Positions 5,071 through 15,828 of a DNA stretch of 17,304 bases are shown piece after piece. The translations under genes and the position numbers were made by a program. Below the pieces are notes generated by a model. It was not told the DNA's origin, did not search any database, and saw only the letters and a list, made by a program, of their open reading frames with translations. Within the stretch, counting starts at the first letter, position 1, and each line of letters opens with the position of its first letter. Source of the DNA: Candidatus Woesearchaeota archaeon (GTDB lineage: Archaea; Nanobdellota; Nanobdellia; SCGC-AAA011-G17; JACOZS01); the NCBI GenBank assembly GCA_016181215.1, contig JACOZS010000038.1, forward strand, positions 1 to 17,304, read 5' to 3'.

Positions 5071-5562
5071 TTAATTCTTCTCTAATATTTTCTTTTTAAC
5101 CTCTTCAAAATTAACATTTTTTAAATGTAATCCTTTTATCCGTTCCTCGCTAGGTAAAGCTTCTTTGGAATATGGTATCTCTATCCCGGCATCAAGAACT
5201 CCTTTTAATATTGCATAAAATATTCCCCCGCGAACACTTCTGTATAATCCTAAATCAAGTACTGCCTCTTTTAGGTTCTTCTTTTTTGCTTTTATTCCGG
5301 CTAGAAGTCCAACCAAATATGCAGCAGTGGTGTTCCTTTTGGCCTTTTCCCAGCCGTATTTTTTAAGTTCATTGGTATGTGCTGCTGCTAGAATCAGATC
5401 TCCGTTCTCGCTATATTGTGCGAATTGTGCAATCATGTTCTTCAATGACCTTCTGACTACAAATCTTGGTTTTCCAGATTTAAGAAGCTGTAATCTTCTT
5501 TTATAATCAGTTTTTCCTTCTCTCTTCCTTCTAAATGGAATCCTAATTTTTCTTTTCGGCAT
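5071..5562 (-). CDS. rpl18: Large ribosomal subunit protein uL18
   Basis: The 163-residue protein shows the archaeal uL18 pattern: a basic N-terminus with RRKREGKTDYKRRLQLLKSGKPRFVVRRS (5S rRNA contact), then the alpha/beta core with NMIAQFAQYSENGDLILAAAHTNELKKYGW and NTTAAYLVGLLAG (about 42-95), and LGLYRSVRGGIFYAILKGVLDAGIEIPYS near 105-135. It binds 5S rRNA with uL5. The ATG at 5562 lies 20 nt inside the end of eL19, an unusually long overlap for this operon. The start is supported by the conserved N-terminal block right after it. Confidence 0.95.
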   Translation of the reverse strand: MPKRKIRIPFRRKREGKTDYKRRLQLLKSGKPRFVVRRSLKNMIAQFAQYSENGDLILAAAHTNELKKYGWEKAKRNTTAAYLVGLLAGIKAKKKNLKEAVLDLGLYRSVRGGIFYAILKGVLDAGIEIPYSKEALPSEERIKGLHLKNVNFEEVKKKILEKN

Positions 5563-6007
5563 GTTGTATTAGACTGTGTTCCTCCATATAAAGTCTTATG
5601 TGTCTCACGCTTCTAAAAAATCCGCCTTTTGATTTTTTGTATAATTCTCTATACACGGGTTTTGTAATTAGTTCATTAGTTCTAAATTTTTTTATATACG
5701 CTCTCTGCGATCTGACTGTATTTATCCATGCCCTTTTTCTTGGTGTTCTGGCCAGTCTTCCTCCTTTCCTTGAACCCAGTCCTTTTCTTCTTCCTTTTCT
5801 TTTTTGCGCTTTAATTTTTCTAATTCTGAATCTGGAAACTCCAGTCTCTGGCAACTTTTTTATATAACCTAATCCAATTAGATGCCTTATGTCTTTTTTA
5901 GTAATGGCCTTTTGAATGTCCTCTAATTTATTAGGATCTAAATGAACCCTTGTCTCTCCAATCCCAAGTAATTGTGCAGCTAATCTTTTCTGGGTCTGAA
6001 GCGTCAT
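5543..6007 (-). CDS. rpl19e: Large ribosomal subunit protein eL19
   Basis: The 154-residue protein is rich in Arg and Lys and matches eL19: TQKRLAAQLLGIGETRVHLDPNKLEDI at the N-terminus, ITKKDIRHLIGLGYIKKLP around 36-54, then the Arg/Gly-rich KRKGRRKGLGSRKGGRLARTPRKRAWI linker (about 69-95) that runs along 23S rRNA, and a C-terminal helix. It is an archaeal/eukaryotic-specific large-subunit protein that contacts the small subunit. It overlaps eL32 by 4 nt upstream and uL18 by 20 nt downstream. Confidence 0.95.
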   Translation of the reverse strand: MTLQTQKRLAAQLLGIGETRVHLDPNKLEDIQKAITKKDIRHLIGLGYIKKLPETGVSRFRIRKIKAQKRKGRRKGLGSRKGGRLARTPRKRAWINTVRSQRAYIKKFRTNELITKPVYRELYKKSKGGFFRSVRHIRLYMEEHSLIQHAEKKN

Positions 6008-6408
6008 CTTCCGCCCTCCAATACCTTTCTTTTTTCTTCCTTAAGTTTCTCAGCCATTTCATCTTTAGATTCCTTGGGTTCTTTTTCTTTCTTATCCTGT
6101 TTCTCAGTCTTCTTCTCTGCTTTTTTCTGGGTTTTTTCTTTTCTATTCTTTAGTGCTTCCTGCACTCTTGCTAAAAATTCACTTGGATTTCTTAGATTCA
6201 ATATTTTTACTCCTAACTCATTTGCTTTTTTCACAAGTTCCATCTTTTTCTTCAGTCCAACCGTACTCCCTATTATAATTACTTTTTTTCCTTCAACCTC
6301 AAAAGCATTATGAACTATATTTTGAGAAAATCCATCTCTAGTCAGTCCTCTGGCCTCTCTTGGACTAGAAAAGCCTATGTTTGGTTTTCTTCTATGGCCC
6401 CTTCGCAT
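6004..6408 (-). CDS. rpl32e: eL32, main body (N-terminal segment displaced to another frame)
   Basis: The 134-codon frame from ATG 6408 encodes the conserved eL32 body: RRGHRRKPNIGFSSPREARGLTRDGF, then VIIIGSTVGLKKKMELVKKANELGVKILNL (about 43-73), then a Lys/Glu-rich tail of some 45 residues. Archaeal eL32 normally has about 40 more residues in front. The first 22 or so are found just upstream in another frame (see the fragment at 6392-6472), and the connecting segment with the usual W-R-x-P-x-G block is absent. Either the protein is initiated at this internal ATG and is N-terminally truncated, or the sequence carries a deletion or assembly error. The body itself is unmistakable. Confidence 0.85.
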   Translation of the reverse strand: MRRGHRRKPNIGFSSPREARGLTRDGFSQNIVHNAFEVEGKKVIIIGSTVGLKKKMELVKKANELGVKILNLRNPSEFLARVQEALKNRKEKTQKKAEKKTEKQDKKEKEPKESKDEMAEKLKEEKRKVLEGGR

Positions 6409-6472
6409 CCTGTTTAAGAAATTCCGGTTTCTTGGCCTTCAATTCATTCCTGACCTGAAGCAGATTACTCAT
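6392..6472 (-). pseudogene. Out-of-frame N-terminal fragment of eL32
   Basis: A 26-codon frame starts at ATG 6472, eight bases inside the end of uL6, as expected for the native eL32 start in this tightly packed operon. Its peptide MSNLLQVRNELKAKKPEF then LKQDA matches the conserved eL32 N-terminus (leucine-rich start, KKPxF and RQD motif). It then reads KGP and stops at 6392, while the body of eL32 continues in the other frame from ATG 6408. The two frames meet at GGATGCGAAG. About 20 residues that usually lie between the QD motif and the MR motif are missing. I infer a deletion of a length not divisible by three. Confidence 0.75.
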
Positions 6473-7022
6473 GTCTTACTCCTGGTTTTTCAATAATAAA
6501 AACCCCGTCTTGGAATACTCTTCTATCTCTATCTGTTATCCTGGTCGCTTGCTCAATTCTTGAAGCCGTATTTCCTGCTCTCTCAATATCAGCTCCTTCA
6601 ACGATTACGAATTCTCCATCCACCTTAACCGAAACCCCTTCCATTATTCTGGCTTTTCTTGGAATTTTTTCACCAAGGAAATTTGAGATTTCCACAACCT
6701 TGCCTTTTACAACAGCACTTATGGGAAAGTGACCAGAACATATTTTTAATTTGTATTTGAATCCATCCTTAACTCCAGTAATCATATTCGTCACATGTGC
6801 TCTAAAAGTATTGAGGATTCTTTTGTCTTTTCTACTGTCCCCCTTAGTCTCCAATACTATGAGATTATCCTGCTTTGTCATTTTAACATTCGGGTCGACG
6901 AATCTTCTTTCCTGGATTCCCTTGCTTCCCTTTACTCTAAGTAATGTTCCTTCTATTGAAACCTCAATCTCATTAGGAATATCTATTCTTTCTTCCAATT
7001 TGGATTTTAGTTTAGTAGACAT
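6465..7022 (-). CDS. rpl6: Large ribosomal subunit protein uL6
   Basis: From ATG 7022 the protein has 185 residues (MSTKLKSKLEERIDIP...). A TTG at 7028 would add two residues and is less likely. The two repeated uL6 domains are visible: IPNEIEVSIEGTLLRVKGSKG with RRFVDPNV, and ICSGHFPISAVVKGKVVEISNFLGEKIPRKARI followed by VKVDGEFVIVEGADIERAGNTASRIEQATRI and the terminal DGVFIIEKPG. It binds near the sarcin-ricin loop region of the large subunit. It starts 11 nt inside the end of uS8 and its end overlaps the original eL32 start. Confidence 0.95.
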   Translation of the reverse strand: MSTKLKSKLEERIDIPNEIEVSIEGTLLRVKGSKGIQERRFVDPNVKMTKQDNLIVLETKGDSRKDKRILNTFRAHVTNMITGVKDGFKYKLKICSGHFPISAVVKGKVVEISNFLGEKIPRKARIMEGVSVKVDGEFVIVEGADIERAGNTASRIEQATRITDRDRRVFQDGVFIIEKPGVRHE

Positions 7023-15298: not shown

Positions 15299-15544
15299 TT
15301 AATAAACATTATCTCTATGGCTAAATCTTAATAATATAATCTCATCCTGTTTAACAGCATAAATTAATCTATACGGCTTTATATAAAGGGTTCTTTCTCC
15401 TTTTAGATCATATCTTAAAGGTTTTCCAACAAGATGATCTTCTATTATTTTTTCAATCTGTTTCTTTATCTTTTCTTTTGTTGAGCCATCTTTAATTTTC
15501 TTAAATTGCCTCTCAAAACTTTCTGTAAGAGTAACTTTTACCAT
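15299..15544 (-). CDS. RelE/ParE-superfamily toxin
   Basis: The 81-residue protein fits the RelE/ParE toxin fold: an N-terminal strand VKVTLTESFERQF, helices with STKEKIKKQIEKIIEDHLVG (about 21-40), then KPLRYDLKGERTLYIKPYRLIYAVKQDEIILLRFSHRDNVY (about 41-81), the pattern PLRxxLxG-R-x-x-RLIY-x-V-x-x-D-x-I-x-LLxxxHR-x-x-VY of many archaeal family members. Such proteins cleave mRNA on the ribosome or target gyrase; which applies here cannot be told. Its ATG lies 7 nt inside the end of the AbrB-type antitoxin gene, the usual coupling in type II modules. Confidence 0.85.
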   Translation of the reverse strand: MVKVTLTESFERQFKKIKDGSTKEKIKKQIEKIIEDHLVGKPLRYDLKGERTLYIKPYRLIYAVKQDEIILLRFSHRDNVY

Positions 15545-15828
15545 TTCTTAAGTTCTTTTAGAAATTCTTCTTTTTCATGGGTTTTACATCTGCCCTGTTC
15601 TATCTCTTTCCATGCTTCTTCGATATCCTTTAAAAGAATAAGATCCTTTTTTAGTATAGGATTTTTGATTTTTTTAAGTATAATTAAATTATAGTCTGCG
15701 CTAGTTGTTGCAAAAACATCCCCCTCTTTAATCTTAAGATGTTTCCTTATATCCTTGGGTATTACTAATTGTCCTTTAGAGCTCACTTTTGTAAGTTCTG
15801 GAACCTGTTCTATTAGTTTATTTTTCAT
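15538..15828 (-). CDS. AbrB/SpoVT-type antitoxin
   Basis: The 96-residue protein has a swapped-hairpin AbrB domain at about residues 12-53, visible as TKVSSKGQLVIPKDIRKHLKIKEGDVF with a following LIILKKI strand. It binds DNA as a dimer. The acidic and Lys-rich C-terminal part (about 55-96, LILLKDIEEAWKEIEQG) probably wraps the toxin. It precedes and overlaps a RelE/ParE-type toxin by 7 nt, and a TATA box and inverted repeat upstream suggest autorepression, the normal control in such modules. The two together form a type II toxin-antitoxin pair; the pairing is inferred from position and family. Confidence 0.88.
   Translation of the reverse strand: MKNKLIEQVPELTKVSSKGQLVIPKDIRKHLKIKEGDVFATTSADYNLIILKKIKNPILKKDLILLKDIEEAWKEIEQGRCKTHEKEEFLKELKKW

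Follow-up and report, generated by a model that had tools for sequence, protein, structure and literature searches.

An archaeal eL32 gene split over two reading frames by the loss of a conserved N-terminal block, with an assembly artefact or minority allele favoured as the cause

The gene for ribosomal protein eL32 on contig C58 of a draft archaeal assembly (Candidatus Woesearchaeota, here G000; the window is the whole contig, 17,304 nucleotides) occupies two reading frames, a 26-codon N-terminal ORF and a body of 134 amino acids, and lacks between them a block which is present in the relatives; it is the only copy found. The cause of the loss we infer from the surrounding evidence. The sequence-only reading of this DNA had put a true truncation and a misassembly forward as alternatives, and both are kept here, although a fixed deletion seems to us less likely than an artefact (of the assembly or of a chimeric read) or a defective minority allele. 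Compared with an ordinary archaeal eL32, the gene would have lost about 71 nt at a single internal site, out of frame, with microhomology of no more than 3 nt at the join. A chimeric read could have produced this, as could, where coverage was low, a faulty gap closure or a mistaken join over a short overlap; alternatively, the assembler may have taken a minority defective allele. The living population would then mostly carry an intact eL32.

The ribosomal-protein cluster of C58 lies on the minus strand, with eL32 between uL6 (start codon ATG 7022) and eL19 (Table 1). This position is like that in the archaeal spc cluster, to which L32e is assigned in the sections of PMC10833476 that deal with it. 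The division of eL32 over two frames, claimed from the sequence alone, was borne out, as was the overlap of the start at ATG 6472 with the end of uL6. The ORF from ATG 6472 encodes MSNLLQVRNELKAKKPEFLKQDAKGP before its TAG, while the body frame begins MRRGHRRKPNIGFSSP; the two share 17 nt, stop included (6408-6392). Both pieces resemble the eL32 protein P0002, with 19 of 23 residues equal in the N-terminal block and 103 of 133 in the body, identities which indicate that their match to eL32 is not due to chance. The body protein matches the L32e family (PF01655) with 53.2 bits against a cut-off of 25, over profile positions 34–108 of 108, and the six-frame search of G000 gives 57.1 bits with a match beginning at profile position 28. 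No single frame of the C58 gene covers the profile over its full length, and the N-terminal ORF by itself has no Pfam match.

Table 1. Position of the eL32 pieces, of their junction and of the neighbouring genes in the window.
Feature	Position	Strand	Remarks
uL6	6465..7022	-	Intact, upstream of eL32; 8 nt overlap with eL32 start
eL32 N-terminal ORF	6392..6472	-	26 codons and TAG (6394-6392); final KGP read beyond the junction
Deletion junction zone (GCG)	6404..6406	-	Inferred loss of about 71 nt; from P0002 and P0137
eL32 body ORF	6004..6408	-	Starts at out-of-frame ATG 6408; 134 aa and stop; PF01655
eL19	5543..6007	-	Intact, downstream of eL32; 4 nt overlap with eL32 end

The extent of the loss can be estimated from the nearest relatives found, P0002 (179 aa, 77% identical) and next P0137 (177 aa), both of which are intact. 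They read QDA-HKLKRLG..W..(P/S)KGRHSQMREK-RRGHRR, with 23 residues separating QDA from RRGHRR, and in C58 the second frame comes directly after QDA. The missing stretch would therefore be about 71 nt, that is 23 codons and 2 nt (69+2), the exact length being deduced from these two proteins, and a loss of this size would account for the observed change of frame. The out-of-frame loss proposed earlier, of a length that is no multiple of three, is thus supported, but not its proposed length of 55–65 nt. Across 56 aligned relatives (42 loci, the best-scoring among the 98 other matching genomes, and 14 database proteins), which all keep the block, the same spacing is 23 in 39, 22 in 13, 24 in 2, 21 in 1 and 17 in 1, the last being P0008, whose start falls inside the block. 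The block residues W33, G38 and R44 (the W, the first G and the second R) are kept in all 55 rows besides P0002. In a second set, the W with P, A or S and the G are present in 40 of the 40 database matches besides that of C58 itself (37 recognised by pattern and three by eye, namely P0153, P0156 and P0162, all WRKPKG). Unlike these archaeal proteins, the C58 copy is without 23 residues, including the W-x-x-P-x-G and S-K-x-R motifs, and changes frame at the junction; the block is absent from the window and from the whole of G000. P0002 aligns through the lost block with solved archaeal eL32 chains (the top 3 alignments; 69 distinct chains matched), which indicates that the block belongs to the normal form of the protein. 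The N-terminal portion of eL32 extends along the 23S rRNA. As a separate observation, one of the database proteins, P0155, is an eL32 of 235 aa with helix-hairpin-helix Pfam domains besides PF01655. The search of the reference genomes gave no close relative, only one distant Aenigmatarchaeota locus, and the viral contigs gave no match.

At the junction, the first frame reads CAG GAT GCG AAG GGG CCA TAG and the second ATG CGA AGG GGC CAT AGA. ATG 6408 falls within the GAT-GCG (Asp-Ala) codons with which the N-terminal block closes, its frame being shifted forward by one base, and the conserved methionine of the S-K/Q-M-R block lies three residues further out in the relatives. Being built from the bases of an Asp-Ala pair, the ATG is no counterpart of that native methionine, and the M of MRRG is thus not the one of the conserved block. 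The join allows a microhomology of 0–3 nt, judged from the residues that P0002 and P0137 have at its two edges, with all codons allowed. The earlier suggestion of a deletion between GATGC-like direct repeats is unlikely to hold: GATGC at the right edge would require Met as the last lost residue, where P0002 and P0137 have Lys and where Met occurs in 1 of the 56 rows. One 10-nt repeat pair is present near the junction, at 6358 and 6508, and neither copy lies at the junction itself.

The loss is private to this genome among those compared. In the survey of the order, 99 of 103 genomes have a PF01655 match (the exceptions are G041, G054, G055 and G102), with one match per genome in all 99. The match begins at profile position 1–5 in 98 of them (in G080, one of these, the gene runs off the end of a contig), and at position 28 in G000 alone. 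No second or displaced copy of eL32 was found in G000 (66% complete) with P0002 as the query and E values up to 10, the only matches being the two pieces on C58. This private loss, together with the residues kept elsewhere, the lack of any trace of decay and the fragmented state of the draft (450,027 bases in 85 contigs), is what favours the artefact.

Incomplete ribosomal-protein genes have precedents in genomes assembled from metagenomes. In the parts of PMC10833476 that concern them, the Heimdallarchaeote bin272 is given a partial L32e, and genomes with partial universal ribosomal-protein genes are considered possibly misassembled. The C58 case is alike in that a conserved single-copy gene is incomplete in a draft; it differs from bin272, as far as that source describes it, in that the gene is internal to a contig of 17.3 kb with both flanks intact and no visible cut end. 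Some observations do speak against an artefact. An overlap of 0–3 nt is too little to produce the join alone, and a short-read assembler normally needs reads that span it. The contig is otherwise clean, in that the other 28 genes that were checked along it all have open frames and Pfam matches above cut-off, and its composition is even across the site (GC3 of 0.336 and 0.328 on either side of the junction). A chimera of two distant genomes was rejected as there is no break in composition, although a chimera of two close strains would escape detection. The database searches with the protein gave no intact eL32 allele of the species itself at high identity. The 90% cluster of P0001, which is the C58 eL32 protein in its 134-aa form, has two member sequences with this form as the representative, and the second member may be a fragment. 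Another contig, of 2178 bases, carries P0016, a uL6 that differs by one residue, so that this species was assembled on at least two occasions.

A general proneness of the assembly to errors was considered and rejected on six other contigs of G000 (40,727 of the 450,027 bases), where ORFs of at least 40 aa cover 91–100% and where one suspicious overlapping ORF pair without Pfam matches was seen, on contig C2. The tRNA-synthetase and RpoB matches of G000 have no internal stops in 6 places, two of the synthetase matches being partial. Several features noted on the way are recorded here in their own right. In the C2 locus L054 (1-1133), the stretch 1-120 is repeated near 870-960 and two overlapping ORFs in different frames have no Pfam match; the region is perhaps a decayed tandem duplicate. 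SufB of contig C6 (L058, 2313-4877) is one frame of 854 aa that appears to contain an in-frame intein, with Hint and LAGLIDADG matches lying inside the SufBD core. Pairs of small ORFs on two contigs (L053 2880-3394, minus strand, and L057 8113-8621, plus strand) resemble each other, read MS.IFEV.DKTKRKIYLTE and MKGKMF.YYDE.GDFLEIG, and are toxin-antitoxin-like by arrangement only. In the window, two small overlapping ORFs at 15299-15828 (minus strand) adjoin uL3 and look by eye to be of RelE and AbrB type.

A real deletion in the sampled genome is possible, if less probable than an artefact or minority allele, and about half of that probability would go to a functional gene. If the deletion is tolerated, eL32 would be made without its first 46 residues from ATG 6408, through coupled reinitiation after the 26-codon ORF; we regard this as unlikely, even though several observations agree with it. 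The 26-codon ORF ends 17 nt downstream of ATG 6408. The assembly yielded no eL32 besides the C58 form, which also represents the database cluster. The start of uL18 lies 20 nt inside eL19, likewise without a Shine-Dalgarno match, and this neighbouring precedent makes reinitiation at ATG 6408 conceivable by analogy. The Shine-Dalgarno scan found GGAG 6 nt before ATG 6472 and no match before ATG 6408, which counts against the internal start but says little, since 7 other scanned starts lack one too, among them uL6, whose start was taken 3 nt off in the scan; of the 30 sites in all, 14 have a match of at least 4 bases and 8 show no match. The body is open and has no excess of private changes, with 6–9 private to P0001 and 5–7 to P0002 against each of six outgroups, so that it gives no sign of decay. 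This would fit a body that is still under selection, but a recent event accounts for it equally well, as would an event that never took place in a cell. Against a tolerated loss stands the missing block itself, with residues that none of the 55 aligned relatives has lost. It is more doubtful still that eL32 works here as two cistrons or in an N-truncated form, with a 26-residue peptide and a 134-residue body produced through overlapping reinitiation and the otherwise invariant W-x-x-P-x-G linker dispensed with; in the sequences compared, such a linker loss in a core ribosomal protein is seen in none of the relatives examined.

The remainder of that probability falls to a real deletion in a defective copy, again an unlikely case, with an intact eL32 located in the third of the genome that is missing from the assembly, or else carried by most of the population. 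The completeness of 66% leaves room for it, and the uL6 sister sequence with its one changed residue shows that strain variants exist; however, ribosomal-protein clusters are single in the relatives searched, and every one of the 99 order genomes with a PF01655 match has just one.

Programmed frameshifting or bypassing, by which both frames would be fused into one protein, is very improbable. In its favour, the frames overlap at 6408-6392 and each has a conserved sequence. Yet the junction holds no recoding RNA structure beyond chance (z -0.33; an equally good fold in 68 of 200 shuffles), and the local codons are poorly suited to slippage as read, CCA-TAG re-pairing poorly (CCA to CAT) and GGG-C weakly. 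In the relatives a single uninterrupted frame encodes eL32, with no conserved slippery site, and a fused product would still miss the block. The frameshift decoding that had been considered from the sequence alone accordingly found no support. Least credible of all is a reduction of eL32 common to the lineage: a family-wide loss lies beyond the genome comparison, G000 being the sole member of its family among the order genomes compared, but P0002 and P0137 are intact and the N-terminal part is kept in 98 of 98 other order genomes, which rules out a reduction at the level of the order. The comparison with related eL32 sequences proposed in the sequence-only reading thus gave no lineage-wide reduction at that level.

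With an artefact or minority allele as the preferred cause, the likelier lesson is that single-copy marker genes used for the quality of metagenome-assembled genomes and for trees can hide internal deletions despite a profile match above the cut-off. Should the deletion be real and expressed, eL32 would be made without its first 46 residues, probably via coupled reinitiation, and if this is true, a small-genome archaeon can lose from a core protein of the large subunit a linker that is kept in all the relatives examined.
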